A DNA stretch of 64,000 nt, taken from positions 90,713-154,712 of IMG/VR virus record IMGVR_UViG_3300030102_006934; one strand, 5' to 3'. Below are positions 6,164 through 63,556 of the stretch, piece after piece. The notes below the pieces were generated by a model, which did no database searches, was not told where the DNA came from, and saw only the letters and a list, made by a program, of their open reading frames with translations. Each line of letters begins with the position of its first letter. The first letter of the stretch is position 1. This DNA comes from a virus. Made by a program: the position numbers and the translations under genes.

Positions 6164-6694
6164 ATGGCAGGATTTAAAGATATCGATGAGGTTGAAGCAT
6201 ACGCGAAGGAACTATTACATAGAGAATATAGAATAGAGGCTAATGGAAAGGTTCACTGGTTAACACCTAGTAAAATAGGCTATCGTTTTAAGTTTGATAA
6301 TGCTAAGAGACGTTTTGGCCAATGTTCTTATAGAGATAAAAGAATAAGTCTATCAAAGCCACTGTGTGAGTATAACCTAAATAACTTTTTTCAGATTAAT
6401 GATACCATACTACATGAGATAGCACACGCACTGTCTTATAAGATACATGGTAGAAGGGGGATGGGCCATTGTAAGAGATGGGTTCATGTGGCCAAATCTA
6501 TTGGATGTAATGGTATTAGATGCTATGATAGTACTCAGGTTAATAATATAGAACATAAGTATACTTTGGTCTGTGATACATGTGGTGGTGAGAATCCAAG
6601 ACATAGAAGACCTAGACAAGATTATTCATGTGCTAAGTGTGAACCTAAGAAGTTTGATGAGAGATACCTATTAAGAGTAGTACAAAATTTTTAA
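6164..6694 (+). CDS. SprT-like zinc metallopeptidase
   Basis: 176 residues. The HExxH motif is at 84-88 (HEIAH), with a third likely ligand His102 in RRGMGHCKRW. A C-terminal zinc ribbon follows: CDTC (137-140) and CAKC (156-159). This order (HExxH, GHG-like His, zinc ribbon) is that of SprT-family proteins, which in cells cut DNA-protein crosslinks. It is slightly longer than bacterial SprT but complete. Expressed from a perfect host-type promoter, it may act early, for example in clearing proteins from DNA. The substrate is unknown. Confidence 0.85.
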   Translation: MAGFKDIDEVEAYAKELLHREYRIEANGKVHWLTPSKIGYRFKFDNAKRRFGQCSYRDKRISLSKPLCEYNLNNFFQINDTILHEIAHALSYKIHGRRGMGHCKRWVHVAKSIGCNGIRCYDSTQVNNIEHKYTLVCDTCGGENPRHRRPRQDYSCAKCEPKKFDERYLLRVVQNF

Positions 6695-7576: not shown

Positions 7577-8485
7577 CTAACTTAGTAAGTCTGTACGACC
7601 ATCTATATAAGTTATATGTCCGTAATTACCACTCATTAGAATATCCTTGTACTCACCCCAATCTTTTGTTGTTCTATATAGGGTTGCGTTTCTTACAATA
7701 TAACCCTTATTAGTAAAAGTACTACAGTAATGTTTCCATACTTCACCATGACCCTCTTTCCAATCAATACCCATGTCTATTAATGTTTGTTGTACCTCAC
7801 ACGCTTCATCATCATCCAACTGACTTATATCAATATAATATTCACCATTGTAAAAATCATAGTTAGGTATTTCATCAACCCAACCGAAGTCATTTTTAGA
7901 CTCGTTGATATCGGTTAGTTTTGGTTGTAAAACATATACACCTCTGTTAAATTTTCCAGCAACTGTAGAACTAAATTGTGGAGCACAATCTTTAGCGTAG
8001 AAATCTTTTTTACTATGTTGGTGTGTGCAAACCTTAACTTCAGCTGAATTAATCCCAGGTTCTAACCAATATATTGTAGGTATTCCTTGAGAGGAAACCC
8101 ATTTACTTTTTTCAAGGGGACTATACCAATAAAATGGTTTGTTGTATAAAATATCAATAGTTTCTTCATCTACCTTAGAATCAATATCCTTAATCCAATC
8201 AAAGTCATTAGATTCTTTAATTGATTTAGGGTTAACTTTTTCGGCTGAATGCCACCATCCTTGATGTTTCTCTGACCATCTATATCCTAGACTTGTCGCT
8301 AGATTAAATAGTAAGTCTTCATCTATATCGTCTACATCGTCTACAAAGTTCTTTATAATATAACGCATTTTATCATCGTCTCTAAAAGATATATAAGGTG
8401 AAATTGTTAATTCATCAGCTTCTATATCCTTAATCCATTGAAGGTCATTATTAATTTCTTCTCTGATAACTTTTTTCAGACTCAT
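7577..8485 (-). CDS. Three-module polyprotein with capsid-targeting-like tag
   Basis: 302 residues. Tag MSLKKVIREE-INNDLQWIKDI, then internal junctions I-K-E91|S (NDFDWIKDI) and I-N-E195|S (KNDFGWVDEI). The modules span 1-91, 92-195 and 196-302. Module 2 (ETIDILYNKPFYW...PTIYWLEPG) is clearly paralogous to the N-terminal module of the lysozyme protein at 22866 (ETLELIYNKPFHF...PTVYWVDRR). No catalytic motif seen. I infer a head-packaged precursor cut by the prohead protease. Confidence 0.75.
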   Translation of the reverse strand: MSLKKVIREEINNDLQWIKDIEADELTISPYISFRDDDKMRYIIKNFVDDVDDIDEDLLFNLATSLGYRWSEKHQGWWHSAEKVNPKSIKESNDFDWIKDIDSKVDEETIDILYNKPFYWYSPLEKSKWVSSQGIPTIYWLEPGINSAEVKVCTHQHSKKDFYAKDCAPQFSSTVAGKFNRGVYVLQPKLTDINESKNDFGWVDEIPNYDFYNGEYYIDISQLDDDEACEVQQTLIDMGIDWKEGHGEVWKHYCSTFTNKGYIVRNATLYRTTKDWGEYKDILMSGNYGHITYIDGRTDLLS

Positions 8486-10992: not shown

Positions 10993-12648
10993 ATGTCTTA
11001 TATTAACGTAAATAATATTTTTTCATATACAAACCCTTATGGTGGTGCTCCAGGGCCAAATCCTCCATTCCCAGGTAAAATTAAAATCCTTTACTCCCCA
11101 TTACTCCATGGTTTCATGTGTGATGCTATACATGGTGGTTCTCACGCAGAAGGAGAAAGGTCTAAAGCTTATGGTAGTCCTTCTCACGCGGAAGGTTATA
11201 AAACTGAAGCTTTTGGTGCTTATTCTCATTCTGAGGGTTATGAAACACAAGCTCACGCTGAGGGTTCTCACGCTGAGGGTTATAGAACCGAGGTTGTGAG
11301 TGGTACTTCCGTTACTGGACATTATGCTCATGCTGAAGGTGGTTACACCAATGCTCATGGGCAATATTCACACGCTGAAGGTAGTAGTACAAATGCTATT
11401 GGTAATACCTCACATGCTGAAGGAAAACATACAACATCTACTGGTATTAACTCACACGCTGAGGGTTTATTTTCTGAATCTATTGGTAATGCTTCGCACG
11501 CAGAAGGACAAGGTACAATTGCTAGTGGTGATTTTTCCCATTCAGAAGGTTTTTTCACCCAATCTAATGGGGAGGGTTCTCACGCTGAGGGTTATAGGAC
11601 AACGGCGAATGGTGATTATTCTCATTCTCAGGGGTATTGGACTACTACAGACGCTAACTACCAAACCGTAGTGGGTAAATATAATTCTCCGAGTGGTACT
11701 CAAGGGGCTTTTATTGTCGGTAATGGTGTCGCTAATAACGTACTAAACAATTTATTGGTTGCTGCTGGTAACGAAGTAGAAGTATTTGGTAACACAAAAA
11801 CTGAGACTATACAAGTAACGGATGGAGCGACAGCAGGATATGTATTAACTTCTGACGCTTCAGGTAATGGTACTTGGCAATCAGTCGCTGGATTAACAGA
11901 CACATTTGTAACAGGAGCTTCTTTAGCTGGTACTGATTTAGAAATAAATAGAAATAATGGTGAACCACAAATAGTTGTTGATTTATCACCACTTAGTGGT
12001 GTTGATATCTTTACAACAGGTGCTACATACGATAATGGGACATCAACTGCCACATTTAATAGAAATGATGGTAATTCATATACTTTAGATTTGTCCACTA
12101 TGGATGTTAATGACACATTTGTTACAAGTTCCTCTTTAAGTGGTACAACCTTATTAATAGATAGAAACCAAGGAGAACCACAAATTAGTGTAGATTTAAG
12201 TTCATTGGCAGACGACACTATTGTAAATGGTTTTACTTATTCAAATAATAACTTAACAATTAGTCAAAATGGTCAATCTGATTTAACAACTAACATAAGT
12301 GTTATGACAGGGGTAACTGTTAATGGTGTCGCTGACTTTACTGATGAGATTTTAATTAATTCTACAACCTTATTTGGACAAACTACATGGAACCCAGCGG
12401 GTGTAAGTAGAGCAACCCATAGAATAGATGGTATAGTCACACCAACATTAGCAGATGGTACTGATGGGCAGTTATTACACATCTTCGTAGCAGATGTTTT
12501 AAGTGTTGGTAGCTCAACTGTAACAGTTACTACTAGTTTAGGTTTCAATACGATAGCCTTTAACGCACTTGGTGATTCCGTGACTTTAATGTTTAATCAA
12601 CCTTTTGGTTGGACAATCGTTGGTAGTTATAATGTGGTAATTAGTTAA
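10993..12648 (+). CDS. Tail fibre/adhesin with SHAEG (YadA-head-like) repeats
   Basis: 551 residues. Residues ~48-215 hold about 13 repeats of S-H-A/S-E-G spaced 10-16 residues apart, the signature of Hep/Hag-type head repeats in trimeric adhesins (YadA family), which form left-handed beta-rolls. Then come three DTFVT(G/S)..L.GT.L.I.RN.GEPQI repeats that are shared with the other fibres, and a C-terminal beta domain. It probably assembles as a trimer at the tail tip and binds the host surface. Confidence 0.85.
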   Translation: MSYINVNNIFSYTNPYGGAPGPNPPFPGKIKILYSPLLHGFMCDAIHGGSHAEGERSKAYGSPSHAEGYKTEAFGAYSHSEGYETQAHAEGSHAEGYRTEVVSGTSVTGHYAHAEGGYTNAHGQYSHAEGSSTNAIGNTSHAEGKHTTSTGINSHAEGLFSESIGNASHAEGQGTIASGDFSHSEGFFTQSNGEGSHAEGYRTTANGDYSHSQGYWTTTDANYQTVVGKYNSPSGTQGAFIVGNGVANNVLNNLLVAAGNEVEVFGNTKTETIQVTDGATAGYVLTSDASGNGTWQSVAGLTDTFVTGASLAGTDLEINRNNGEPQIVVDLSPLSGVDIFTTGATYDNGTSTATFNRNDGNSYTLDLSTMDVNDTFVTSSSLSGTTLLIDRNQGEPQISVDLSSLADDTIVNGFTYSNNNLTISQNGQSDLTTNISVMTGVTVNGVADFTDEILINSTTLFGQTTWNPAGVSRATHRIDGIVTPTLADGTDGQLLHIFVADVLSVGSSTVTVTTSLGFNTIAFNALGDSVTLMFNQPFGWTIVGSYNVVIS

Positions 12649-17627: not shown

Positions 17628-19097
17628 ATGAGTATCAAAAAATACATAAAAGAAGAGATGGATAGTTTTGACTGGATTAAGGACGTAAAAACTAATGATA
17701 CTATCGCTAAAGAAATTTATGATACTCTAAAATGGCATAAGGTTCCCAATGTAACAACAGATTTTGTGAAAGTACCGTGGGTTGACATTGTTTTTGCGGT
17801 AAGAAAAAGAAACTTAAGTGACTCCAAAATACCTTTAATCACCCCAAGTACATTTTACAAAGGTTTTACAAAATACGTAAAAGAATATTACAATATTTTT
17901 GATCCTCAAACTGGTGTGTTAGAAATTTACAATAAAGTTAGGGCATTAATGGGGGATAAAATTCATGGAACTATTACTGAGTCTAATGACTTTGGTTGGA
18001 CAAATAGTTCTAAACTCATATACCCTCAAGACTTAGTCGGTTATTATTTTACTTACACTGAAAAAGAATATACAATAACTAAGGTGGATGAAATGTATTT
18101 AAGTGATGATCCAGAAGATGAAAAACTCACCGTTTATTATAAGTATCGAGCTTATGAGGGGTTACGTAAAAACAAAATGGATGTGGATACTTTGATTTAT
18201 AGAATCAAAGGTGGTGACTACGGTCTATATGACTTGGAGGGTAATCCTGTTAATCCAGATGATTTGGTATATAGTGATGGTAAGTTGGAAGATGTTGATT
18301 CTGTTAATGAAAATTCTGATTTTGATTGGGTGAGTGATGTTACCCCTTATATTGATAAGGTTACTGACCTACAAATTGGTGAGTATTATGAAATAAAGGA
18401 CATAGACACAAAACTTTTCACCATGTTGGTTGATTGTGGGTGGCACTATGAGTCTGAATTAATTAGAGATTTATATGATAAAGGTGAAATACTTACCGTT
18501 AAAATTAGTGAAACGGTACCAAACGCTATATTAAATTACTATGTTTATTGTGATGGGCGTACAACATCATGGAAACCTAATAATACCGTTTCAAAGAGGG
18601 GTCCTGTAGCGGGAATAGAACTTTATAGTGAAATGGATACCTCACATCACCCAAGACATGATTGGATACCTTTCCACTCTTTTTATATTACAGATGGTAT
18701 GATAACATTTTACAGAGATAATAAGGATTTGAATGAGTCCGCAGAATTTGGTTGGATAGAAGATGTAAAACCAAATGTGTTGAAGGCTTTGGCTGATGCG
18801 AGTACGGGTGATGAGAGAATTAATTTTATTTATAGTGATGAAAATAAATATTTCACCTCCATTGAGGATGAAAAAGGTTTTAACTACTTTACTAGAGTAT
18901 CTCTTATTTCATACTTAAGAAAAGTTAGGCAGGATTGGGATACCATGCCTGAGGTAATACTTAATAGTATGACCGTTGATGAGATGTTGGGTTTTATAGA
19001 AAAATTTTTAAAAGATAACTTCCCTGACCAACAACCAGTTGCTATATATGAGGACTATTTATATTTATATGAATTTATTAAACGTGGATTAAAATAA
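17628..19097 (+). CDS. Four-module polyprotein of internal-head type
   Basis: 489 residues. Tag MSIKKYIKEE-MDSFDWIKDV, then junctions I-T-E118|S (NDFGW), V-N-E228|N (SDFDWVSDV) and L-N-E370|S (AEFGWIEDV). The four modules are 118, 110, 142 and 119 residues and have little sequence similarity to one another apart from the junction. No enzyme motif recognised. It is followed 1 nt later by the ten-junction polyprotein. Inferred: a head-packaged precursor cut by the prohead protease into separate small proteins. Confidence 0.75.
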   Translation: MSIKKYIKEEMDSFDWIKDVKTNDTIAKEIYDTLKWHKVPNVTTDFVKVPWVDIVFAVRKRNLSDSKIPLITPSTFYKGFTKYVKEYYNIFDPQTGVLEIYNKVRALMGDKIHGTITESNDFGWTNSSKLIYPQDLVGYYFTYTEKEYTITKVDEMYLSDDPEDEKLTVYYKYRAYEGLRKNKMDVDTLIYRIKGGDYGLYDLEGNPVNPDDLVYSDGKLEDVDSVNENSDFDWVSDVTPYIDKVTDLQIGEYYEIKDIDTKLFTMLVDCGWHYESELIRDLYDKGEILTVKISETVPNAILNYYVYCDGRTTSWKPNNTVSKRGPVAGIELYSEMDTSHHPRHDWIPFHSFYITDGMITFYRDNKDLNESAEFGWIEDVKPNVLKALADASTGDERINFIYSDENKYFTSIEDEKGFNYFTRVSLISYLRKVRQDWDTMPEVILNSMTVDEMLGFIEKFLKDNFPDQQPVAIYEDYLYLYEFIKRGLK

Positions 19098-19098
19098 A

Positions 19099-22000
19099 AT
19101 GGGGGATAAAAAGGAAGAATTTAATTGGGTTAATGATATCTCAAGTGATTACTGGGACTACCATAACGTTTTAGTGTTTAATGATGCCATTAGTTATGAA
19201 GAGTTCGATGATTTAATCTCTCACGCTTTATATTCCAAGTCACCTAAAAATTCACACCAATGGGGAGACGATGGGAAAAAAGAGGCTTGGAATTATTTAA
19301 CCCACCTTGTAAAAAGTTATAGTGTGGGTTATCTTATTTGGGATAAACCATATTTATCCGTTTCAGCTCAACACAAGCTGAAACAAGGAGACCCAAAATT
19401 AGTAAATTATAAGGATATAGTTAATCAAAAACCAAAGTTAGATGAGTCTGATGAATTTAGTTGGGTTAGAGATGAGGTTGATAGTCCGATTAGGTTTAGT
19501 GTAGGTGATAAAATAAGGGTTATTAATGTGGGTGATGTACAAACTTTCATCGATTTTTTGGGTACTGCTGGTGTATATTATCGTAAAGGTCTACTTGGAA
19601 CTAATATTGAGGGTGAGATTATAGATGGTGGTAATGAATATTTATTCCCCTTAAGGGAGAAAAATAGGGGTAAAATAATTTTTTTACCATGGTTAGACAT
19701 GGTAGATTATTGGGCTGACTCCTACCCTGATTTGGATGTTAGGTATGAATTTATAGATGATGACTTAAACGAATCTAGTGATTTAGATTGGATTAGAGAT
19801 GTTGAACCGCCTAATTTAGATTTTAGTTTTGATGGTAAGGAACATTGGGTTGACGTTTCACAAATAGATAGAGAAGGTAGGAAAAAAATTGTAAATTATA
19901 TTAAAAAAACTGTTCCAAATTACGAAGAATTTGAAAGTGATCTGTTCGGTCATATATCTAGAGGTAATTATAAAGGAATTATTATTCATTGTGGTTCTGA
20001 TAGGACCTATTATGAACCTGAAGAAGGTTTATTATGTAGTGCAAATAGTAGTTACGAAGATGATTATAAAATAGACAACCCATACTCAGATATGCTAAAA
20101 TCTGTTTATCTTGATGGCCAAGAAATATTAGATTATATTACTGTGACTGATGATGTTGATGAAGAATTAGATGAATCTTTGGAGTGGTCAGACAAGGACG
20201 CACCTTTTGATGAAAAAGATAAAAGTTTTGAATCAGACCCTAGTTGGAAGAATGATGAAGATTGGTCATTAAACCCCGAAAGGTCTTATTGGAAACAAGG
20301 GGATACTGGGGGTTCTGGTGGTGGTGACGTGAATGAGTCCAATGAGTTAGAATGGATTTATGATATAAGACCCACATTAAAAGACGTTTTTGATGAAAAT
20401 TTGATTGGGGTTGGGGATATTTTAACACTTTATGGGACATTGGAAGATGAAAATGGTTTGGAAGAACAACAGGTAGATGATTTTAAAGTAAAGATAGAGA
20501 CTGTCTCAAATTCAGAAAGACCTCGATTAGTCTCTACTTACTTCAAACCATTACAAAAAAAATATTGGGGTTTCTTGGGTTATGATGGTACGGGAGATAT
20601 AAGGTTCACTAAAAAAGATGGTAACTTACAGTTGGTGGATAGAATTAGTGGTAAAGGTTTGGTAGAAGGGTCTAATGACTGGGATTGGGTGGAAGATATA
20701 CCAGGAACAAAAGAATTTGACCAAAAATATAGATATTTTGAAATTTTGGCTTGTTATGGTGTTGATTATGAATCTGAAGAGTGTGATGATGAATATTCAC
20801 ATTATGTTAGAATACCCAAATATGAGGCTGATGAAATATGGGACCATTCGGTTGATTATTTCGCTGGAATTGCTGATGGTGATTCTTATGATGTTATTAT
20901 GTACGCAATACAAAATAGACTAATATCACACTTTGAAATCAACGAAATTGTTATGTTTGAGGGTGTTAGAGAGTTGGATAAAAATACTTATGATAAACTA
21001 ACAGATTATAGAGATGACTTGCTTACAAATGAATCATATTTTATCAATGAAAAAAGTGATGACTTTGACTGGGTTAAGGATATAAAACCCAATTGGGGTA
21101 CTTATTATGGTGGTATAATAATGAAGGACATTGAGGGTCTACCTAAAAAATTAGAAGATGTAACAAGTGAAATGTTACTACCTATTTGGATGAAAATAGA
21201 AACTATTAATAGACAAATATTAACTAGAAAAAACAGAGATGATAAACATGGTGTGAGTGAGACGTTAATTGATTCTATGGATCAAATCGAGTGGCTGTTT
21301 GGTAGAATAATGGCTTTGGTTGATGGTGAAACCGATAGTTTAGTATCTTCCAGAATGGAACCACAGGAGTATTACAATTCAAGAAAACTAACTATAATTA
21401 GTTACATAAAAGGCATGGCTCAACAATTAGAACTACTCGGTGAATCTAATGACTTTGGTTGGGTAGAAGATGTAACACCAAGGATGGACGCTACCCTATT
21501 AAAACCTGGACAAAAATTCTATGACAAATGGGGTGGCGTTATAAGAGTGTTAGAGTACTTGGGTAGGGATGATTCTGAAGGTGAAGTTTGTTATGAACCC
21601 CCTTGTAGTTTATTAAGATTTAGGAAAATAAAAGACCCAAGTGGTTACATACCAATTCCTGGATTACCAGCTGATGACCCACAAAACACAGATATGGTAA
21701 TGAACCCAAACGATTTCGATAGTTACATTGAATCTGGTAAATTAAAGTTAGTTAGTAAACGTACAATGTATGAATCAAAAGATTTTGATTGGGTTAGGGA
21801 TGTTGAAACCGATAGAACTGACTCTAAGTATTATATAATAGATAGAAGAAGTTTCTCTGGGGTTCCTGAAAAACAAAAAGATGAGTGGTTTATGATAGAA
21901 ATATTAGAAAATGACAAGTATGGCATTCATTGGAGACCTTACGCATGGAATTTGGTGAATGTTCATACTTGGAATCCAACCCATCGAGTTGGAAAAATGT

Positions 22001-22863
22001 CAAACGATGAATTTAAAAATTTATTAGGTTTAGGTTCAAAGGATAAACCTTACTGGTACCCTCATGATGGGGATTTGACTGACCTACCCAAAAATTACGA
22101 CCATGGGTTGTTGTCTCAACTAAATACCCCCAAAAATCTTAGGGAGTCTGATGATGTTAGCCATTTTAATTGGGTTAAAAAGATCTCAAGTGACGACTAT
22201 GAACCCCGTACTGGTGACCACATTGAAATTGTTAATCAAGGAAAACCACATTTATTTAAAAATTGGTTATCCCCCACTATTTGGATGGATTATAACATGG
22301 GTAAAATAACTAACACAGATGGTAATATAGAGGGTGTAGTACAAAATGATTACCCAACTCAAAACGCTCAAGATAATTTTGTCGTCAAAATAAAAGGTAC
22401 CAAAAATGAATATATTTTTCTACCTAAGAGATATAAAATAAAACAAATTAAAGAAAAAACTAGGGACCCTGAATGGCACGGTTTAGACATTATATATAGA
22501 CCTATTGAATTAAGATCAGAATTAAAAGAGGATTCTAGTGACACCTCTGATTGGGACTGGGCTAAAAAGATTGAACCAAAATATACAAAAATAGCACCAA
22601 ATATATATCAATATGGTAGTGGGAGTTTACCAAGGATAAAGGTTGTATTTAAAAGGGTAGTGGATGGTGAAATAAAAACCACCGCAATAGAGTTTGACGA
22701 TTATGAGTTTTTAGATAGTGAAGAATACATGAATAGGCATTTCATTTTAATGGGTGTTGATGATGAGGATAATGATTGGATAGTTGATGGTATAGCTTAT
22801 CTTATTGGTGGGGGTGAGTATGAGTGGGATGTTAATTGGGATTCTATAGAAAATAATGGTTAG
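19099..22863 (+). CDS. Giant polyprotein with ten predicted cleavage junctions
   Basis: 1254 residues. Starts MGDKKEEFNWVNDI without a full basic tag. Junctions, each (I/L/V/M)-x-E and mostly followed by S-x-D-F-D-W-V-x-D: E116, E225, E359, E413, E523, E651, E782, E892, E1016, E1144. Module lengths are 109-134 residues, plus one 54-residue linker (360-413) that is acidic and Gly-rich. The modules are Asp/Tyr/Trp-rich and mutually divergent, unlike a simple tandem repeat. No known domains. Lying between the 489-residue polyprotein and the lysozyme polyprotein with 1-2 nt gaps, it belongs to one operon of packaged precursors. Confidence 0.75.
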   Translation: MGDKKEEFNWVNDISSDYWDYHNVLVFNDAISYEEFDDLISHALYSKSPKNSHQWGDDGKKEAWNYLTHLVKSYSVGYLIWDKPYLSVSAQHKLKQGDPKLVNYKDIVNQKPKLDESDEFSWVRDEVDSPIRFSVGDKIRVINVGDVQTFIDFLGTAGVYYRKGLLGTNIEGEIIDGGNEYLFPLREKNRGKIIFLPWLDMVDYWADSYPDLDVRYEFIDDDLNESSDLDWIRDVEPPNLDFSFDGKEHWVDVSQIDREGRKKIVNYIKKTVPNYEEFESDLFGHISRGNYKGIIIHCGSDRTYYEPEEGLLCSANSSYEDDYKIDNPYSDMLKSVYLDGQEILDYITVTDDVDEELDESLEWSDKDAPFDEKDKSFESDPSWKNDEDWSLNPERSYWKQGDTGGSGGGDVNESNELEWIYDIRPTLKDVFDENLIGVGDILTLYGTLEDENGLEEQQVDDFKVKIETVSNSERPRLVSTYFKPLQKKYWGFLGYDGTGDIRFTKKDGNLQLVDRISGKGLVEGSNDWDWVEDIPGTKEFDQKYRYFEILACYGVDYESEECDDEYSHYVRIPKYEADEIWDHSVDYFAGIADGDSYDVIMYAIQNRLISHFEINEIVMFEGVRELDKNTYDKLTDYRDDLLTNESYFINEKSDDFDWVKDIKPNWGTYYGGIIMKDIEGLPKKLEDVTSEMLLPIWMKIETINRQILTRKNRDDKHGVSETLIDSMDQIEWLFGRIMALVDGETDSLVSSRMEPQEYYNSRKLTIISYIKGMAQQLELLGESNDFGWVEDVTPRMDATLLKPGQKFYDKWGGVIRVLEYLGRDDSEGEVCYEPPCSLLRFRKIKDPSGYIPIPGLPADDPQNTDMVMNPNDFDSYIESGKLKLVSKRTMYESKDFDWVRDVETDRTDSKYYIIDRRSFSGVPEKQKDEWFMIEILENDKYGIHWRPYAWNLVNVHTWNPTHRVGKMSNDEFKNLLGLGSKDKPYWYPHDGDLTDLPKNYDHGLLSQLNTPKNLRESDDVSHFNWVKKISSDDYEPRTGDHIEIVNQGKPHLFKNWLSPTIWMDYNMGKITNTDGNIEGVVQNDYPTQNAQDNFVVKIKGTKNEYIFLPKRYKIKQIKEKTRDPEWHGLDIIYRPIELRSELKEDSSDTSDWDWAKKIEPKYTKIAPNIYQYGSGSLPRIKVVFKRVVDGEIKTTAIEFDDYEFLDSEEYMNRHFILMGVDDEDNDWIVDGIAYLIGGGEYEWDVNWDSIENNG

Positions 22864-22865
22864 TT

Positions 22866-24080
22866 ATGGAGATAAGAAAAATAATAAGGGAAGAATTAAA
22901 TGATTTCGATTGGGTTAGGGATGTTGAACCTGAATTAACGCCAGAAACATTAGAATTAATCTATAATAAGCCATTTCACTTTCACCGTACAGAAGATAGT
23001 GGACCAAATATGAAGAATGGTAAACCAACAGTCTACTGGGTGGATAGGAGGTTGAGTGAGTTAAAAAATACTAATAAGTCTTCTAAGAACCCTATTGCGG
23101 ATGATAGAGAGTTTTTTTTATGTTATAAAGAACCCCAAGGACCACACACACTTCACCAATGTAGTGAAATGTATGCTAAAACAATAATCAGTTATATCAA
23201 AAGAAAACAACTTGTTCAACAGAAAGAATTATCAGATATTAAAGAATCTGAAATTTATTTAAATAAAATACTTAATAGGTTATCCTTAATTAAAGAAGAT
23301 GGTAAAAAACCAGACATGGAGTGGGATTTTACTAAGACTAATTTAGATAAATCTAAAAAATGGGTTAAAACAAAAGAAGATGTTAAAAAATATCTTTCAC
23401 TCTTATTTGATAAATTAAAAAATTTACCTAGAAAAACTAAAATTAAAATAATTAAGTATGTTTTAACTTCTTTTATTGGTTTATTAACAATAAGCCAATT
23501 ACAAGATATTGTGGATGAGACCTCACCAGAGAAGATAGAAATTAAGAAACCAATAAAACAAGAACTTCCAACAGACAAGGATTCAACCAAAGTTATGAAC
23601 ACTCAAATAAATAAAATTAGAAAACCTAGTGAAGAGTTAACTACTTTTCTAAAAAAAGAAGAGGGGTACGTTGATAAAGGTTATAAGATTGGTGATGGTA
23701 AAATAACGATTGGTTGGGGTCATGCTGAGGATATTGATGGTTCTAAATATACATTGGGTCAACAGATTGACACAACAGAAGCCGAAACATTATTAAGACA
23801 AGATATTAAAGAATCTTCAGATGCTTTAAACAGAATTTTAGATGATTGGGAAAGTAAGGGTATCAAGGTTGATATTACACAAGATATGTATAATGTGATG
23901 ACATCTATGGTTTTTAATATGGGTATCGGTAACTTTAGAAATTCTGATTTTATCCAATTAGTTAAGGGTAATGAGTTGAGTAGAGCTAAGGAAAAAATAA
24001 AAACAACAAGTTCACACTTATTTGGTAAATTTCCAGGTCTTAAAAAAAGAAGAAAATTAGAATCAGATTTATTTAATTAA
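22866..24080 (+). CDS. Tagged membrane-associated lysozyme (GH24-type)
   Basis: 404 residues. Tag MEIRKIIREE-LNDFDWVRDV and a module to ~120, paralogous to module 2 of the protein at 7577. Two candidate cut sites follow (I-K-E127|S and I-K-E144|D), then a hydrophobic segment (~195-212, IIKYVLTSFIGLLTISQL). A phage-lysozyme domain spans 255-404: E266 in KKEEGY is the probable catalytic acid, and ITIGWGHA (280-287) is the GH24 core. The usual central Asp is not at the standard spacing. It cleaves peptidoglycan; the tag suggests a head-packaged lysozyme released by processing, not a classical endolysin. It could still serve lysis. Confidence 0.8.
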   Translation: MEIRKIIREELNDFDWVRDVEPELTPETLELIYNKPFHFHRTEDSGPNMKNGKPTVYWVDRRLSELKNTNKSSKNPIADDREFFLCYKEPQGPHTLHQCSEMYAKTIISYIKRKQLVQQKELSDIKESEIYLNKILNRLSLIKEDGKKPDMEWDFTKTNLDKSKKWVKTKEDVKKYLSLLFDKLKNLPRKTKIKIIKYVLTSFIGLLTISQLQDIVDETSPEKIEIKKPIKQELPTDKDSTKVMNTQINKIRKPSEELTTFLKKEEGYVDKGYKIGDGKITIGWGHAEDIDGSKYTLGQQIDTTEAETLLRQDIKESSDALNRILDDWESKGIKVDITQDMYNVMTSMVFNMGIGNFRNSDFIQLVKGNELSRAKEKIKTTSSHLFGKFPGLKKRRKLESDLFN

Positions 24081-25930: not shown

Positions 25931-28636
25931 ATGTTAAAAAAAGTTACTTTACCTAAAAATATTAATTTTTTAAAGGAGTCGGAATTTGATTTTGTTGACG
26001 ATAAAACCAACAACCCTTTAGATGGTGTTAAGTTTACTATGAATAAATCACCAATAAAAGGTGACGAGAAAAACATTTACTATATAATAGATGACGGTGG
26101 CTTATTTGTTAAAATAAAATGGTACGGTGGTGGTTATTTAAAAAGAACCTTTAAGAGAGATAGGGTAATGGATTTATTTAAAAGAGGGGTTTGGGAACCT
26201 TATTTTGAACCTACTAAGAACATTAATGAATCAGAAAATGGTGACTTTGATTGGATAAAAGATACTACCCCAAAAGAGATAGACAACTATTATAAAGTTG
26301 TTTTGGATTTTTTTGATTGGAGTAGGAAATATAAAGGTTACAGTTATAGTGCAAATGATGTAGGTGTTGTAGAGTGGTACATACCAATAGTTGATTTTCC
26401 ATATCCGTTTCATGACTATTATTTTTACGCAACCCCTTATTGGGAGGGTAATGGTGTTATGAATGTTACCGCTGTGGATGAACAAGGCCACGAAATAGAG
26501 TTACACACAATACCATTACCTAAATTTAAATACGAAGAACAACTAAAAGAATGGTTAACGTCAGAGTACCCAAAAATAGTTTACGAAGAAATAAAACATT
26601 TTGAAGACACTCGGCAATATAGTGGTGATACTTTAACCGAAACCAAAGATTTACAGTGGATAAAAGATGTGGGTACCAATAGAATCGATTTGGTTAAAAA
26701 AATAAAAGAGACGTTATCTAATCATGGTGTTGAGGTAGAATGGGAAAGGGACCACTTGGCTTATAACCAAGAAGACACAGATGGTACTAGGGGTGAGGTT
26801 TTTGCTAAATTTTTCTATGATGCTGGTGATAGACAGTTTTTTATTGAACTTATAGAATCGGAAAATGATTTATATGGTTTTTATGTTTATGAATATAATG
26901 AACAATATGACACTTATTATGTAAACGCTAATTATAATTCCCTTGGTATACCTAGGGAATCAGATGAAACTTGGCGTCATGTGTGTTGGACGGTTCTAAA
27001 TCAAATGGATGCTTTTCCAAAAAAAGATAAGGTTGGTGATTTAGCAGATTATTTAAAAGAATCTGATGATTTCGAATGGGTTAGAGATTACAAAGATGTT
27101 TTTGATAAAAACAAAAACTACGCTCTATACGTGGGTAAAATTAATATTGATGACATGACTTTACCGCCAAGGGAAAATCCGAATAACAAATCAATATACA
27201 TTCATAAATTAAATAAACAGGTGAAGTTTATTCTTAGTTTAATACATCAGTTTGAAGATATGGGTTATGATATAAGGGAGTTAGATAGAGAGATTGCCAT
27301 CCCCTCAAACCAAAGAGTTTCTTGGATATACATAAACGGTAAAGAAAGTAAATCTGGAAAACCAATGTCGTTAGAGTTTGATGACATACCCCCTGGAGAC
27401 CCAACCTATGATGGTCAATATGAGATTATTGATAATTTTAAAGACTTTTATTTTTTAATTACTAATGAAGTTATTAAAGAGTCCGATAATTTGGATTGGA
27501 TTAGGGATATTAAATCACAAGGTTTTGAAAAAAGTAAAAGTTATGTTGTTGATGTTAGTAACTTAATGGTAGATACACCAATGTCTGTTTCCCCTACTTC
27601 TGAGGAATACACTAAATTAACAAGAGCAGATGTTCTAGACAAATTTAAAGCGTTAGGTTATAATGTTGATGATATTTCTGTTGCTGACGCTGATTATCTA
27701 TATATTGAACCTAACGATGAAGCTGGTTATTGGGATGATACTGTTTGGGTTAAGCAAACTCATTGGGTAGACTATGATATGGAACACAACACACCCGACC
27801 CAACTTATAATGGCAAGTACGAAATGATAGATGTTAATGACCTTATGTTTTTACTTGATAATAAATTTATTAGTGAATCTAAATCAATAACTGAAGTAGC
27901 GGGTATTTCATTTGAATCAAGGGAATGGGCTAAAATAATAAATGACAAAATATTAAAAAACCCAAATGAAAAAGAGAGGTTGATTATTGATGGTTACGAT
28001 TATCCAGAAGCCTTTAAGAGTTTCCCAATAGACTATATTGTGATTGATTTTTACGATAAGTTAACTGGTTATGCTCAAGAACACTCTGGTTATGATAAAG
28101 ATGGTAACTATGTTGTACTATTATATATACAACCTAAAGTAATTAGTGGTACTGGTGGGTTTAACCTAAGAACAGTACTTAATCATGAAATGAAACACGC
28201 ATGGGACGATTATAACAGGCTTTCTAAAGGCCAACCTAGTATTGATAAGAATAAGGAAAACAGGGAGTTGTATAACAAAGATTTTATATTAATGTTATCA
28301 GATAAAAATGTTCGTGGACCCATAAAAGAAATCTTAAAATATTATTATTATTTATCTGAACTAGAGAAGACGGCTTACCTAGAAAATGTTTATGATGGTA
28401 ATTTAAATTACGAAAAAATAATAAGGGATATATCTAGTAAAGACTTCGAACCTTTTAAAGAAAGATTTGATTTGGATATTAATTGGCATTTAATGAATAC
28501 GGCTTACGATATACCATTCTTGAAGAAATTTAAATCCCCAATAGAATTTATTGATTATAGTTCTGAGGAATTAAGGTCAAAAGCGGTTGATATGATTAAG
28601 AAAATCAACAAAATGAAATATATTCATAATAAATAA
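25931..28636 (+). CDS. Six-module polyprotein ending in an HExxH metallopeptidase
   Basis: 901 residues. Junctions: L-K-E16|S, I-N-E100|S, L-T-E237|T, L-K-E377|S, I-K-E517|S, I-S-E649|S. The modules span 17-100, 101-237, 238-377, 378-517, 518-649 and 650-901. Module 101-237 (FYATPYWEG ... LPKFKYEEQL) is paralogous to one in the protein at 47656; modules 4 and 5 share DPTY.G.YE.ID. The last domain has HEMKH at 752-756 followed by AWDDY, a zinc-peptidase helix. The first junction leaves a 16-residue leader like T4 capsid-targeting peptides. Inferred: a packaged precursor delivering a protease. Confidence 0.8.
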   Translation: MLKKVTLPKNINFLKESEFDFVDDKTNNPLDGVKFTMNKSPIKGDEKNIYYIIDDGGLFVKIKWYGGGYLKRTFKRDRVMDLFKRGVWEPYFEPTKNINESENGDFDWIKDTTPKEIDNYYKVVLDFFDWSRKYKGYSYSANDVGVVEWYIPIVDFPYPFHDYYFYATPYWEGNGVMNVTAVDEQGHEIELHTIPLPKFKYEEQLKEWLTSEYPKIVYEEIKHFEDTRQYSGDTLTETKDLQWIKDVGTNRIDLVKKIKETLSNHGVEVEWERDHLAYNQEDTDGTRGEVFAKFFYDAGDRQFFIELIESENDLYGFYVYEYNEQYDTYYVNANYNSLGIPRESDETWRHVCWTVLNQMDAFPKKDKVGDLADYLKESDDFEWVRDYKDVFDKNKNYALYVGKINIDDMTLPPRENPNNKSIYIHKLNKQVKFILSLIHQFEDMGYDIRELDREIAIPSNQRVSWIYINGKESKSGKPMSLEFDDIPPGDPTYDGQYEIIDNFKDFYFLITNEVIKESDNLDWIRDIKSQGFEKSKSYVVDVSNLMVDTPMSVSPTSEEYTKLTRADVLDKFKALGYNVDDISVADADYLYIEPNDEAGYWDDTVWVKQTHWVDYDMEHNTPDPTYNGKYEMIDVNDLMFLLDNKFISESKSITEVAGISFESREWAKIINDKILKNPNEKERLIIDGYDYPEAFKSFPIDYIVIDFYDKLTGYAQEHSGYDKDGNYVVLLYIQPKVISGTGGFNLRTVLNHEMKHAWDDYNRLSKGQPSIDKNKENRELYNKDFILMLSDKNVRGPIKEILKYYYYLSELEKTAYLENVYDGNLNYEKIIRDISSKDFEPFKERFDLDINWHLMNTAYDIPFLKKFKSPIEFIDYSSEELRSKAVDMIKKINKMKYIHNK

Positions 28637-29282: not shown

Positions 29283-30023
29283 TTATTTAGTTGTAGCCTT
29301 TAAATACTCTCTATTCATCCTAGCAATATTTTCTAATGAAATACCCTTTGGGCATTCTACCTCACATGCACCCGTATTAGTACAATTACCAAACCCTTCT
29401 TTATCCATCTGATTAACCATGTTGATAACCCTTTCTTTGGACTCAACCTTACCTTGAGGTAACAGTGAAAACTGAGACACCTTAGCCCCAACAAATAACA
29501 TAGCCGAACTATTCTTACAACTAGCAACACAAGCTCCACAACCTATACAAGTTGCTGCCTCAAAAGCCTTATCCGCATCTTCCTTTCTAATGGGTATTGT
29601 ATTAGCATCTATTAAACTACCCGTGTTTATTGATACGTAACCACCAGATTGTTGAATTCTATCGAAAGCACTTCTATCTACCATTAAATCTTTGATTATT
29701 GGGAAAGCTTTTGCCCTAAATGGCTCAACGTAGATGGTATCACCGTCATTGAAACTTCTCATGTGTAGTTGGCAAGTTGTAACGCCTTTATCTGGACCGT
29801 GAGGTTCACCGTTTATATACATTGAACACATACCACATATACCTTCTCTACAATCATGGTCGAAAGCTACTGGTTCTAACCCCTCACTGACTAGGTTACC
29901 ATTTAAAACATCCATCATTTCTAGAAAAGACATATCACCAGAAATATTATTTATTTCATAGGTAACTATCTTTCCTTTAGATTTATAGTTTTTTTGACGC
30001 CAAACTTTTAAAATTAAATTCAC
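29283..30023 (-). CDS. sdhB: Succinate dehydrogenase/fumarate reductase iron-sulfur subunit
   Basis: 246 residues, full length for the family. N-terminal ferredoxin-like domain with the [2Fe-2S] ligands C58, C63, C66 and C84 (CREGICGMC...C), then the C-terminal domain with C159, C162, C165, C169 ([11 protein letters not shown]) and C214, C220, C224 ([14 protein letters not shown]). All eleven Cys for the [2Fe-2S], [4Fe-4S] and [3Fe-4S] clusters are present. The motif variants match the Bacteroidota type. It normally carries electrons from the SdhA flavin to the membrane subunit. No sdhA or sdhC is in the window, so it would have to work with host subunits. An unusual auxiliary metabolic gene for a phage. 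Confidence 0.93.
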
Positions 30024-47639: not shown

Positions 47640-47643
47640 TGTG

Positions 47644-47651
47644 ATATTTAT
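47644..47651 (+). promoter_or_regulatory. ATATTTAT late-type promoter motif (divergent pair, right)
   Basis: Ends 4 nt before ATG 47656. It overlaps an alternative ATG at 47650, which is why I choose 47656 as the start. Confidence 0.65.
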
Positions 47652-47655
47652 GAAT

Positions 47656-49530
47656 ATGGAGGTAAATGAGAAAGAAATTGAAAAATCTGATAGATCTATA
47701 GATTTATCTGGTTTTAAAGTGCAGGATGAACTTAATCCTAAAATATGGGATGAAGATCAAAAAATGAAATCTGACGTTAGAAAAACTTTGTTAAAGATTG
47801 CTGACGATTATTTTGAGTCTTTGGAATTACCTAAAGTTGATATTGAGGACGTAACCATGACTGGTTCTTTGGCTAATTATAATTGGTCTAAGTACTCCGA
47901 TGTTGATTTACATATTGTGGTGGATTATGATGATATTCCAGTAGATGAGGAGTTGGTACAGGACTTTCTTAAATCTAAAAGTTCTAATTGGAATAAAGAA
48001 CATGACGTTACCATTTATGGTTATGATGTGGAATTGTATGTACAAGATATAAACGAACCACATCACTCTACTGGTGTTTATTCCATATTAAAAGATGAGT
48101 GGGTGACTAAACCCAAAAAACAAAAAATATCATTTAATGACAAATCTGTGAAAGAAAAATCTAACCGTTTAATGGATAGGGTGGAAGAGATTTATGATGA
48201 AATGGATGAGGTAGATAATGAGGTCACAATTAAACGTGTTGATAAATTAACTGAAAAAATAAAAAAAATGCGTCAGTCTGGTCTAGAGTCTGGTGGTGAG
48301 TTTTCTGTTGAAAATATTGTTTTTAAAGTTTTAAGGCGTAATGGTATGTTAGATAGGTTGTATGATATTAAAACTGTGGCCTATGATAATTCAGTAACAC
48401 TAGAATCGACTAAATTAAATACCTTGATAGAGTCAATGTTAGATGATTCTTTGGATTGGATAAGGGATGTCACACCTAAAACTCCTATAAAAAAAGAATG
48501 TTGTACTGCGTATCAGGGTCATTTTAACATTGTTATGGATTATTTCAATGCTATAACAAGCAAATTAAAATATGGTGATTGGCAGTATTCAATAGATGGT
48601 CACAGTGGATCGGTTCTTTGGGAATCACCTACCATACCTGACTATGTTTTTTACGCAACACCTTATTGGGAGGGTGTTTCCAATGAATTACCTATTGATT
48701 ATTCGGGAGATATGGGAGACTACGATACTTTAGAAGATGTAGAATTACCAAAGTTCAATTATGAGGAGGATTTAATTAATTGGTTAAACTCTGAATACCC
48801 AAAGTTGGTTTCTAATAAGTTGAACCACCATGTAACCAATTTTTCAACATATAATGTTGAACACAGGATAAAAAAGGGTAAGTTACTAGAATTATTTAGT
48901 AAAAAAAATATGAGTAAGGGCGAATTAAAAAAAAAATTCAATAATTTTCTTTCTAAAGTAAAACAAGAAGGTGGTGAAACTAAAGAAGCGTATAAAATTT
49001 TAGTAAACTCAATAAAAAGTGGTCAAAACTTATCTAAAGAAGAAAGAGACAAGGTAACCGAACAACTCAAAGATATACTTAAGTTGGCTGGGTTTACTGT
49101 AGCTTCTATATTACCAGGTGGTATCTTATATTTAATGTTATCTAAAGTTGATAAATTTAAAAAGCATTTATTACCATCTTCTTTTCTTGAAGAAACAAAA
49201 GATTTTGATTGGGTAAAGGACGTTAAAGAAACTGATTCATGGAAAAGAATTGATTTTGTGGTGTTTAAGGATGGGGGTTATATTGGTACCCCCACTATTC
49301 TAAGACAAGATTTTTTTGAAAGGGAGAAAAAAATTGGTAATAGTATTTGGGTTGAAGATGATTATGAAATAGTTGATGAATTTCACGTTTTATACCCACC
49401 TAATAATTTTAGTGGTTCAGCTGTCTCAAACCTTTTGGATGAGTGTTACCATCATTTAAAGTTGGGTGTTATGCCTTCCGATTCTTACGTATACAATGAA
49501 GAACTTAATAAATTCGAACCTAACACATAA
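47656..49530 (+). CDS. Nucleotidyltransferase polyprotein with LETM1-like segment
   Basis: 624 residues from ATG 47656 (47650 and GTG 47641 are in-frame alternatives). Residues ~66-130 hold a Pol-beta-type nucleotidyltransferase core: TGSLANYNWSKYSDVDLHIV with GS at 70-71, D82/D84 and E126 in VELYV. Junction L-I-E259|S (LDWIRDV) begins a module paralogous to module 101-237 of the 25931 protein (VFYATPYWEG). Residues ~400-500 resemble a LETM1-like phage segment (KLAGFTVASILPGGILYLML). Junction L-E-E513|T (KDFDWVKDV) starts the last module. Inferred: a packaged precursor that releases a nucleotidyltransferase; its target (tRNA, protein or nucleotide) is unknown. Confidence 0.78.
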   Translation: MEVNEKEIEKSDRSIDLSGFKVQDELNPKIWDEDQKMKSDVRKTLLKIADDYFESLELPKVDIEDVTMTGSLANYNWSKYSDVDLHIVVDYDDIPVDEELVQDFLKSKSSNWNKEHDVTIYGYDVELYVQDINEPHHSTGVYSILKDEWVTKPKKQKISFNDKSVKEKSNRLMDRVEEIYDEMDEVDNEVTIKRVDKLTEKIKKMRQSGLESGGEFSVENIVFKVLRRNGMLDRLYDIKTVAYDNSVTLESTKLNTLIESMLDDSLDWIRDVTPKTPIKKECCTAYQGHFNIVMDYFNAITSKLKYGDWQYSIDGHSGSVLWESPTIPDYVFYATPYWEGVSNELPIDYSGDMGDYDTLEDVELPKFNYEEDLINWLNSEYPKLVSNKLNHHVTNFSTYNVEHRIKKGKLLELFSKKNMSKGELKKKFNNFLSKVKQEGGETKEAYKILVNSIKSGQNLSKEERDKVTEQLKDILKLAGFTVASILPGGILYLMLSKVDKFKKHLLPSSFLEETKDFDWVKDVKETDSWKRIDFVVFKDGGYIGTPTILRQDFFEREKKIGNSIWVEDDYEIVDEFHVLYPPNNFSGSAVSNLLDECYHHLKLGVMPSDSYVYNEELNKFEPNT

Positions 49531-56746: not shown

Positions 56747-58630
56747 ATGGCAGATAAAAAAGATAATCTAACTATATATCAAAAGTTGTTCACAGTTTTT
56801 GGTCAAGGTGGTGGTACAATGAGGAGTGATACTAACCTTAACCCAAAGTATAATTTAACCGATAAAGATTTAATTGTTACTAAGTCCAGAGAGGATTTTG
56901 AAAAAACTAAATTACAACTACAACAACAGAGTTACTTAGATTCTCAATGGCAAAAAATTGAGAACGATATGTACCAAAAAGCTACATATTATGAAACTAC
57001 TAGATTAGCTTCCTATATGGATTATGAAGCTATGGAATTTACACCAGAGATAGCTGTTTCTCTTGAAACAATGGCTGAGGAAAGTTGTACTTTAAATGAA
57101 CAAGGACAAATAATGTCCATATATTCAGATTCTTCTAGAATTAAAAAGGTATTAGAAGATTTATTTTTCAATGTTTTAGACATTCACTCTAACCTACCCA
57201 TGTGGACTAGAAACACATGTAAATATGGTGATAATTTCGTACACTTAAAATTGAACTATAAGTATGGTGTGATTGGTGCTACACAGTTGACCAATATTGA
57301 AATAAGTAGAAGCGATTCTAATAATTTCGACTATAATGAAACAAATTCTACGACAAACGAAGATTCCAAAAAAGAGGTTAAGTTCGAATGGAAGTCAAAA
57401 AATATGAGTTTTAACGCTTGGGAAGTAGCTCATTTTAGATTATTAGGTGATGATAGAAAATTACCTTATGGTACATCTGTTTTAGATAAAGTTAGAAGAA
57501 CATGGAGACAATTATTATTAGCTGAAGATGCTATGTTAGTGTATCGTGTAACTAGAGCACCAGAAAGAAGGGTGTTTAAGGTATATGTAGGTAACATAGA
57601 CGATGAAGACGTGGAATCTTATGTTCAGAAGGTTGCTAATAAATTTAAAAGAACTCAGACAGCAGATAATAAAACAGGTCAACTAGACGTTAGGTATAAT
57701 ACTTTGGCTGTAGACCAAGATTATTTTGTACCCGTTAGAGACCCTAACGCACAGAGCCCTATAGAAACCTTACCTGGAGCGACAAATCTAGACCAAATAG
57801 CCGACATACAATTCATACAAAGAAAAATGGTAACAGCACTTAGAGTACCTAAAACGTTTTTAGGTTTTGAGGAACCTATTGGTGAGGGTAAGAATTTGGC
57901 TTTAATGGATATTAGATTTGCGAGAACTATCAATAGGATACAACAAGCTATGATACAAGAATTAAATAAGATAGCTATAGTACATCTATATATGTTAGGT
58001 TTCCATGAAGAACTTAGTAATTTCAAATTATCATTAAACAACCCATCTACACAAGGTGAAATGTTAAAAGTGGAACAATGGAAAGAAAAAGTATTGTTAT
58101 ATAAAGACCTAGTTGCTGCCACTGATGGTATAGCACCAACGTCACATACATGGGCTAAAAAGAATATATTTAATTGGTCTGAAGATGAAATTAAATTAGA
58201 TTTAGAACAACAAAGATTAGAGAAAGCTGCAGCAGCTGAATTAGAAAAAACACCTGAAGTTATAACTAAGACTGGATATTTCGATAAAGTAGATAAATTG
58301 TATGGAGATATAATGACTCAAAAAATGGGTGGTGATGAAAGTGGTGATACTGGAGATGATGCTGGAGGTGGATTCGGAGGTGACACTGGAGGTGGATTCG
58401 GAGATGATACTGGAGGTGGATTCGGAGATGATACTGGAGGTGGATTCGGAGATGATACTGGAGGTGGTGACACAGAAGGATTTGGTGAAGGGTTTAGAGG
58501 TGACGAAGGAGTGATCGATAATCTTTTATTAGAAGGTAAAAAGAAAAATGAGGATATTATCATGATGACTGATGGTATAGATAGGTTATTGAAAGAAGAA
58601 AATTTTGACGAAAGTGATATATTAACATAA
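56747..58630 (+). CDS. Portal protein (T4 gp20-like)
   Basis: 627 residues. T4-type portal signatures: RLASYMDYEAMEFTPEIAVSLETMAEESC near 85-115, RVTRAPERRVFKVYVGNI, PGATNLDQIADIQFIQRKMV and LRVPKTFLGFEEPIGEGKNL. Forms the dodecameric vertex channel for DNA and initiates head assembly. Unlike T4 it has a Gly/Asp-rich tail (residues ~530-590, repeated GGGFGDDT), then a short charged end. Confidence 0.93.
   Translation: MADKKDNLTIYQKLFTVFGQGGGTMRSDTNLNPKYNLTDKDLIVTKSREDFEKTKLQLQQQSYLDSQWQKIENDMYQKATYYETTRLASYMDYEAMEFTPEIAVSLETMAEESCTLNEQGQIMSIYSDSSRIKKVLEDLFFNVLDIHSNLPMWTRNTCKYGDNFVHLKLNYKYGVIGATQLTNIEISRSDSNNFDYNETNSTTNEDSKKEVKFEWKSKNMSFNAWEVAHFRLLGDDRKLPYGTSVLDKVRRTWRQLLLAEDAMLVYRVTRAPERRVFKVYVGNIDDEDVESYVQKVANKFKRTQTADNKTGQLDVRYNTLAVDQDYFVPVRDPNAQSPIETLPGATNLDQIADIQFIQRKMVTALRVPKTFLGFEEPIGEGKNLALMDIRFARTINRIQQAMIQELNKIAIVHLYMLGFHEELSNFKLSLNNPSTQGEMLKVEQWKEKVLLYKDLVAATDGIAPTSHTWAKKNIFNWSEDEIKLDLEQQRLEKAAAAELEKTPEVITKTGYFDKVDKLYGDIMTQKMGGDESGDTGDDAGGGFGGDTGGGFGDDTGGGFGDDTGGGFGDDTGGGDTEGFGEGFRGDEGVIDNLLLEGKKKNEDIIMMTDGIDRLLKEENFDESDILT
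58360..58470 (+). repeat. 24-nt tandem repeat in portal C-terminus
   Basis: Four or five units GGAGGTGGATTCGGAGATGA plus TACT encoding GGGFGDDT. Nearly exact copies; likely variable. Confidence 0.75.
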
Positions 58631-61034: not shown

Positions 61035-61766
61035 ATGAAAATATTAAAACCAGGAGAAGAAGGATATGGATATCTTGTAGAATATGATTCAGGGTTCATA
61101 TCTTCTGAACTAACTTGTCAAGATGGAGTTTGTTCTAACCATAACCTAATAAAAGAGTTTAAATCGGGATTAAGTTTAGGTCAAGATGGTACATTACCAG
61201 ATAAAATAGAAATTTATGCCGTACTACAAAAGTGGGGTGTAGAGAACAAGAATGGGAGGGTATACCCAGAAGAGATTTTGAAAAGAGAATCTAAGAGATA
61301 TCAAGAGTTTATAGATATGGGTACGTCTTTGGGGGAATTAAACCACCCAGAGTCTTCAATTATTGATGCTGACAGAGTTTCACATATGATTTCAGAGATT
61401 TGGTGGAACGGTAGAACACTTATGGGAAAAATGGAGTTAGATACAACACCAGGTTACCTTAAATCAGGTATTATCTCATCTGTAGGTGATAAAGTATTAA
61501 ATATGATTAGGAAGGGTTGGACCGTTGGTATTTCATCTAGAGGAGTAGGTTCTTTAAAGAATGAAAATGGTAAAAATATTGTACAGGAGGATTTCGAATT
61601 AATTTGTTGGGATATAGTTACTTCTCCATCAACACCAGGTTCTTGGATATCTACCTCGGAAAAAGATTTAAAACCTTTCATGGAGTCTACCAAAGGGGAT
61701 AAAACAAAATTAATAATAGAAGATGACTCTGACTTATTAGATAGTTTAGATAAATTTTTATTGTAA
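61035..61766 (+). CDS. Prohead core protease (T4 gp21-like)
   Basis: 243 residues (T4 gp21 is 212). Serine protease of the herpesvirus-assemblin-like type: His104 in GELNHPE and Ser167/168 in GISSRG, with acidic DFELICWDIV following. In T4 this enzyme removes core proteins and N-terminal targeting peptides in the prohead, cutting after (L/I)-x-E. Located between portal and scaffold as in T4. It is the expected enzyme for the many (I/L)-x-E junctions across this window. Confidence 0.92.
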   Translation: MKILKPGEEGYGYLVEYDSGFISSELTCQDGVCSNHNLIKEFKSGLSLGQDGTLPDKIEIYAVLQKWGVENKNGRVYPEEILKRESKRYQEFIDMGTSLGELNHPESSIIDADRVSHMISEIWWNGRTLMGKMELDTTPGYLKSGIISSVGDKVLNMIRKGWTVGISSRGVGSLKNENGKNIVQEDFELICWDIVTSPSTPGSWISTSEKDLKPFMESTKGDKTKLIIEDDSDLLDSLDKFLL

Positions 61767-63083: not shown

Positions 63084-63488
63084 TTAATCCCAATATTCTT
63101 TAGGTAAACCAATCTTCTCAGCTAATTTCTTAAATAAACCTTCATGTTCTTCTGATTTGGGTAAGTCCTTACCAACTGCAGCATGTATAAGTTCATGGGT
63201 TATAACCCATTTTAAGTATTCTACATCCTCTAAAGCTTTGGATTTAATACCCATTTTACCATTCTCACCATTTTTTGGGTGGTTAAATCCCGCTATCTTA
63301 CCATCTTTTATAGTATCATCTATTTTAATATCTATTGGTGGTAGTACTAGTTTATCACCTGTGACATCTAGGTAAACCCTTCCCAAATCGTCCACAACAT
63401 TATTTTTTATTTTAGATATCAAATAATTTGGGTTTTCAACACTTGGTACATCAGCTTCTCTCAGTACTTTTTTAATTAAACTTCTCAT
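63084..63488 (-). CDS. Tagged HExxH metallopeptidase
   Basis: 134 residues when started at ATG 63488, chosen because the late-type motif ends 7 nt upstream (an ATG at 63506 would lie on the far side of it). MRSLIKKVLRE|ADVP is an 11-residue leader ending L-R-E|A, very like T4 internal-protein leaders. HELIH at 98-102 and His115 (EEHEG) form a zinc site. Short peptidase domain, otherwise unnamed. Inferred to be packaged and freed by the prohead protease next door. Confidence 0.78.
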   Translation of the reverse strand: MRSLIKKVLREADVPSVENPNYLISKIKNNVVDDLGRVYLDVTGDKLVLPPIDIKIDDTIKDGKIAGFNHPKNGENGKMGIKSKALEDVEYLKWVITHELIHAAVGKDLPKSEEHEGLFKKLAEKIGLPKEYWD

Positions 63489-63495
63489 ACAAAAA

Positions 63496-63503
63496 ATAAA
63501 TAT
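63496..63503 (-). promoter_or_regulatory. ATATTTAT late-type promoter motif
   Basis: Minus strand, 7 nt before ATG 63488; decides the start of the metallopeptidase gene. Confidence 0.6.
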
Positions 63504-63556
63504 CACTCTTTTTTAACAAGAGAAATAAAAAAATAAAACTTTTCCACACTTTTAAC

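Follow-up and report, generated by a model that had tools for sequence, protein, structure and literature searches.

A candidate head-packaged zinc metallopeptidase family in large T4-like phages

Introduction

Why should a T4-like myophage end a long modular protein with a putative zinc protease, and could such a domain be carried from the phage head into the host? The stretch of DNA analysed here (the window, 64,000 nucleotides) belongs to a 380,343-base virus record from such a phage, and its open reading frame at 25931–28636 on the plus strand encodes a modular polyprotein of 901 residues whose C-terminal domain bears HEMKH (residues 752–756) and AWDDY (757–761). Modules paralogous to those of this protein occur elsewhere in the same genome.

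The T4 system offers a precedent for delivery, in that gp21 cleaves after L/I-X-E and a capsid-targeting sequence (CTS) of 10 residues is sufficient for the packaging and delivery of foreign proteins, enzymes included (PMC9026906). Host-targeting or processing roles have been proposed for phage zincins in two surveys (PMC5512222, PMC7824862), and the C1 domain of the N4 virion RNA polymerase, which bears an HExxH motif, is part of an ejected protein (PMC12633501).

Results

All features of the 901-residue protein given below lie on the plus strand. Its active-site signature, HExKHAxxD, does not vary across 16 aligned rows, in which identity falls as low as 26%; HExxH would be expected 0.02 times on average in a shuffled protein of equal composition. 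The residues invariant across these rows are H752, E753, K755, H756, A757, D760, E812 and E818 (positions 97, 98, 100, 101, 102, 105, 157 and 163 of the first row of the alignment). The putative zinc-binding and catalytic motif HEMKH (28184–28198) is placed by the AF2 model in a helix spanning residues 746–764, and the glutamate pair E812-x5-E818 (EKTAYLE; 28364–28384) within the next conserved helix or where it begins. E812, which lies 56–60 residues beyond the second histidine and is shared by the homologue L152 too, is the candidate third ligand of a gluzincin-type peptidase; the full model has it inside helix 155–166, whereas in the trimmed core model it shortly precedes the helix.

The AF2 model of residues 656–901 (the predicted mature metallopeptidase, 27896–28633), built from 11 sequences, reached a pLDDT of 92.4 and a pTM of 0.87, and orders its elements as an N-terminal helix, three strands, the HExxH helix (91–109) and a later helix (155–166) with both glutamates. 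The sequence-only reading had taken this domain for a metallopeptidase and had named the lack of a third metal ligand near the HExxH helix as evidence that would count against it; what the alignment and model give instead is a conserved candidate, E812, downstream of that helix. With an invariant active-site motif, this candidate ligand and a confident zincin-like model, the identity of residues 656–901 as a zinc metallopeptidase is well supported by conservation and by predicted structure.

Because the VIA rows for the whole model were taken up by C-terminal helices and were uninformative, the core was modelled alone (16 sequences, helical tail removed), with a pLDDT of 87.6 and the glutamate helix running from 158. 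The VIA rows for this core were mostly zincins of unrelated families, all at Z<5 (best Z 4.9, rmsd 3.4 over 80 residues, 2ejq_B), and included weak matches to TTHA0227, ACE2, lethal factor (M34), neurolysin, BlaR1, leukotriene A4 hydrolase, HtpX/BepA/Ste24, collagenase H, selecase and a DNA-protein crosslink protease. Foldseek returned no PDB match at E<=0.001 for the whole model and no significant one for the core, its PDB matches being weak (E>0.6), and a profile search of PDB sequences gave no match at E<=1. The modelled core appears, then, to resemble zincin peptidases weakly. That weakness could be read in favour of a zincin fold retained for a structural or binding role rather than for proteolysis; however, loss of at least some active-site residues would be expected of a dead enzyme, and here the histidine pair, E753 as general base and the glutamate that follows downstream persist in every one of the 16 rows, even at the lowest identity, which makes a non-proteolytic role very improbable in our view.

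No curated family reaches its cut-off for the peptidase domain, and PADLOC, NCBIfam and PHROGs hold no family for it. The best Pfam match, to the effector metallopeptidases of Peptidase_M91 (PF14891), was below cut-off at 17.9 bits against 25, was found in one of 11 members and covered the HExxH helix only, and the domain is accordingly not a member. SprT-like (PF10263) did not match the domain, unlike the window ORFs at 6164 and 63084, and the Pfam, PHROGs and NCBIfam scans, whose scope is the clades in those libraries, reported no polyvalent-protein metallopeptidase model. The peptidase appears to be an undescribed zinc-protease family.

The polyprotein that carries the peptidase opens with a capsid-targeting-like peptide, MLKKVTLPKNINFLKE16 (25931–25978), which ends in L-K-E and whose putative function follows the T4 CTS rule (PMC9026906). 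Candidate sites for an S77 prohead protease are then recognisable by motif at I-N-E100 (26222–26230, followed by SENGDFDW), L-T-E237 (26633–26641, followed by TKDLQW), L-K-E377 (27053–27061, followed by SDDFEW) and I-K-E517 (27473–27481, followed by SDNLDW). The first of these also adjoins a module shared with the 47641 ORF, homology to which sets in at residues 102–106. The longer junction motif [LI]xE[STAGV]..[DE][FLWD]xW is enriched in the 901-residue protein (3 seen, 0.003 expected) and the bare [L/I]-x-E is not (13 seen, 10.4 expected). Since the bare motif is common by chance and two copies (E800 and E810) are internal to the peptidase domain, the [LI]xE rule is insufficient alone.

The comparison with relatives moves the start of the last module. 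The open reading frame, its coordinates, HEMKH, AWDDY and the triplet I-S-E649 (27869–27877) are all present as first read, but I-S-E649 does not stand as the module boundary that it was proposed to be: it is unconserved in the nearest relatives, being V-N-E in L001 with nothing comparable in L002. BLASTP of the window protein against stand-alone short forms places the onset of similarity at residue 653, within I-T-E655 (27887–27895), so that the module would start six residues farther on, after I653-T-E655 and with V656 as its first residue. The same position is marked across the family, with [L/I]-x-E immediately before the conserved xxG[I/V]S start in 14 of the 16 distinct members, window included (ITE, ITE, ITE, LTE, LTE, LTE, ITE, LLE, INE, LLE, LNE, LVE, LSE and LKE); the chance of [LI]xE is ∼1.2% per position. 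The site ends a short capsid-targeting-like peptide in 11 of these 14 members (for example MNIKKIIKNILTE and MNNKKIIKKILLE in stand-alone proteins) and a polyprotein in the other three (window, L001 and L002). In the tree the fused copies are a single clade (100/99) nested in the stand-alone short forms, which suggests that the polyprotein fusion is derived and that the cut site was retained. As judged from the aligned sequences, the candidate cut site conserved at the junction across the 14 members is of the type that T4 uses for head-packed proteins.

A protease expected to cut these junctions is encoded in the window, a gp21-like S77 prohead protease at 61035–61766 on the plus strand (PF03420, E 3e-28; phrog_207 head maturation protease, E 1e-41), and it was also found in four relatives. 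Portal_T4 lies at 56747 (E 5e-72), with the portal most similar to those of a Microcystis phage and Flavobacterium phage immuto (both ∼39%), and a gp23-like capsid protein is encoded just past the window. At the position that we take to be the equivalent of the T4 gp23 cut, [LI]xE is kept in 80 of 81 related capsid proteins, from which we infer that the S77 protease of this lineage shares the specificity of its T4 counterpart. Together, the comparative cut-site evidence, the presence of an S77 protease and the like cut motif in a capsid protein make a good case for packaging of the peptidase, and lend support to the earlier proposal that it forms the last module of a packaged polyprotein.

It might instead be supposed that the peptidase is a cytoplasmic enzyme, made during infection and left unpackaged, next to which the [LI]xE peptides are incidental. 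Two divergent homologues, L016-like and L152, begin at M-LGIS with no targeting peptide, and the bare motif is frequent, as would suit such an enzyme. Yet 14 of 16 members have the site exactly where the module begins, whatever precedes it, be it a targeting peptide or unrelated modules, and we regard an unpackaged enzyme as quite unlikely. The groups that carry no targeting peptide show that the enzyme can be retained where packaging would not take place, consistent with the host cytoplasm as its site of action.

The 16 distinct members, a count that includes the window and leaves out almost identical duplicates (L063 and L066, for example), came from searches of viral contigs and of those phages' own records, and all are from metagenomic phages. 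The window protein is a short form, as are L001, L002, the second copy in L003, L010 and L013; long forms, with an insert after the N-terminal helix, are the first copy in L003, L005 (from the same genome as the window), L012, L015, L042, L043, L056 and L065. Both forms occur together in records G000, G002, G003, G004, G007 and G013. A tblastn search of the bacterial genome collection returned no relatives, and GenBank phages gave no match to the window domain or to the long form and, for the short form, only matches at E>=0.4; Flavobacterium phage immuto, uncultured phage LR756508 and Microcystis phage Mel-JY01 likewise gave no matches. Promoter and terminator scans performed no better than shuffles, and a DNA pattern for targeting peptides, scanned over the genome, was overly strict and of no use.

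The peptidase is absent from three records (229, 296 and 345 kb, possibly incomplete) whose capsid protein is 61–63% identical, which suggests an accessory function and not one at the core of assembly. This bears on whether it might be a second maturation or clearance protease that works inside the prohead, with scaffold, propeptides or the parent polyprotein as its substrate, and not a host effector. The peptidase would indeed be concentrated in the head, a function of this kind has been proposed for a conserved zincin of group 1 jumbo phages (PMC7824862), and autoprocessing has been proposed for polyvalent proteins (PMC5512222). However, S77-type sites already stand at the junctions, nor is there a polyprotein for the stand-alone copies to process. 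The enzyme is missing, too, from three large relatives whose capsid protein is similar, and two members have no targeting peptide. Its patchy occurrence, and the subgroups from which the targeting peptide is missing, speak against the enzyme being essential for head maturation, and we judge any such in-prohead function unlikely.

Other candidate packaged enzymes are encoded in the window. A SprT-like HELIH metallopeptidase at 63084–63506 on the minus strand (PF10263, 23 bits, just under cut-off; N-terminus MRSLIKKVLREAD) is a candidate second packaged zinc protease, and a phage lysozyme domain (E 3.5e-20) at 22866–24080 on the plus strand, behind the targeting-like N-terminus MEIRKIIREELNDFDW, is possibly head-packaged; the SprT-like HEIAH protein at 6164–6694 on the plus strand (PF10263, E 2e-12) is without a clear targeting peptide. 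Repeated [LI]xE..(D/E)FxW(I/V) junctions are also found in the window ORFs 7577–8485, 17628–19097, 19099–22863 (eight W-type junction motifs in 1254 residues) and 47641–49530 (an N-terminal nucleotidyltransferase domain; phrog_36119, E 2.5e-58). Given these other enzymes with like N-termini, packaged-enzyme arrays may be a general habit of these phages.

Farther off in the window's own genome, a HEIEH protein (L023:1110-1817; G000:C1 ∼347109-347816) has the N-terminus MNKKDILLE followed by MGRYDSLT, and a relative of it is a fused module, beginning GRYD after ..VMAE, in Flavobacterium phage immuto gp088, a nucleotidyltransferase/NMNAT/HExxH protein. A distant HELTH protein (L153:616-1725; N-terminus MKLIITQRQSNLLIKE followed by AMGVPKPIEFW) matches the peptidase profile weakly at 15 bits, and with the peptidase family it perhaps forms a wider superfamily of the same layout. 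An ORF at L003:697-1237 combines a targeting-like N-terminus with the short tandem peptide repeat LWETHKRKVSTA. The window also encodes a complete succinate dehydrogenase/fumarate reductase iron-sulfur subunit (29283–30023, minus strand; NF005746, E 3e-130), here in a phage genome and adjoining the thymidylate synthase-like 30303, and, at 10993–12648 on the plus strand, a protein with SHAEG motif repeats that is likely tail-fibre or adhesin-like.

Discussion

There is reason to think that this peptidase may be an enzyme that the phage head delivers. Residues 656–901 would be synthesised as the C-terminal module of the polyprotein and would constitute an active zincin-type zinc metallopeptidase, the polyprotein being recruited into the prohead during head assembly. 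The S77 protease would there cleave after I-T-E655 and at the other [LI]xE junctions to leave free peptidase within the head, and the peptidase, ejected along with the DNA, would cleave one host protein or several soon after infection begins. Taken as a whole, this course of events strikes us as an evenly balanced prospect: a host-cutting effector role is plausible and is favoured over a maturation role, while the host target itself is only presumed. Somewhat short of even, and so put forward tentatively, is the broader idea that large T4-like phages of this lineage fill their heads with several enzymes from prohead-protease-cut polyproteins, including a new family of zinc proteases that would hit specific host proteins at DNA entry.

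Phages have been proposed to deliver proteases from the head that strike the host at time zero, but the papers that we consulted describe no defined family with a clear delivery route. In the present family the sequences of 14 members spell out the route as a targeting-like peptide or polyprotein junction, an S77 site and a mature start, and thus packaging, release and host substrate are each directly testable. A rule is also gained for finding further packaged enzymes in giant T4-like phages.

The best predicted-structure matches are the BFVD phage proteins A0A6J5L9D6 and A0A6J5L930 (TM 0.6, E 4e-5 and 2e-4, ∼14% identity), which are uncharacterised and, unlike the window domain, ∼100 residues longer. 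A close parallel may be drawn with the zincin-like metallopeptidase (MPTase) domains of polyvalent proteins described by Iyer et al. 2017, as in the phage N4 virion RNA polymerase, and linked to the lethal factor fold (PMC5512222). The order of elements in our AF2 model (N-terminal helix, three strands, HExxH helix, glutamate helix) matches that description, those domains likewise sit in multidomain proteins proposed to enter with phage DNA, and the window genome's own polyprotein ORF 47641 also has a nucleotidyltransferase module. In contrast, the window domain is not recognisably related in sequence to any of the library models, its modules are smaller and divided by prohead-protease sites, and its family includes, in a T4-type phage, stand-alone copies with a targeting-like peptide of their own.

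The internal head proteins of T4 and Alt are directed by a CTS, cut by gp21 and ejected (PMC9026906). The window phage shares with that system a short N-terminal peptide ending in [LI]-x-E, an S77 protease and, as in Alt, an apparent enzyme cargo. To our knowledge T4 cargo includes no metallopeptidase, and unlike T4 the window phage strings several cargo modules in one chain.
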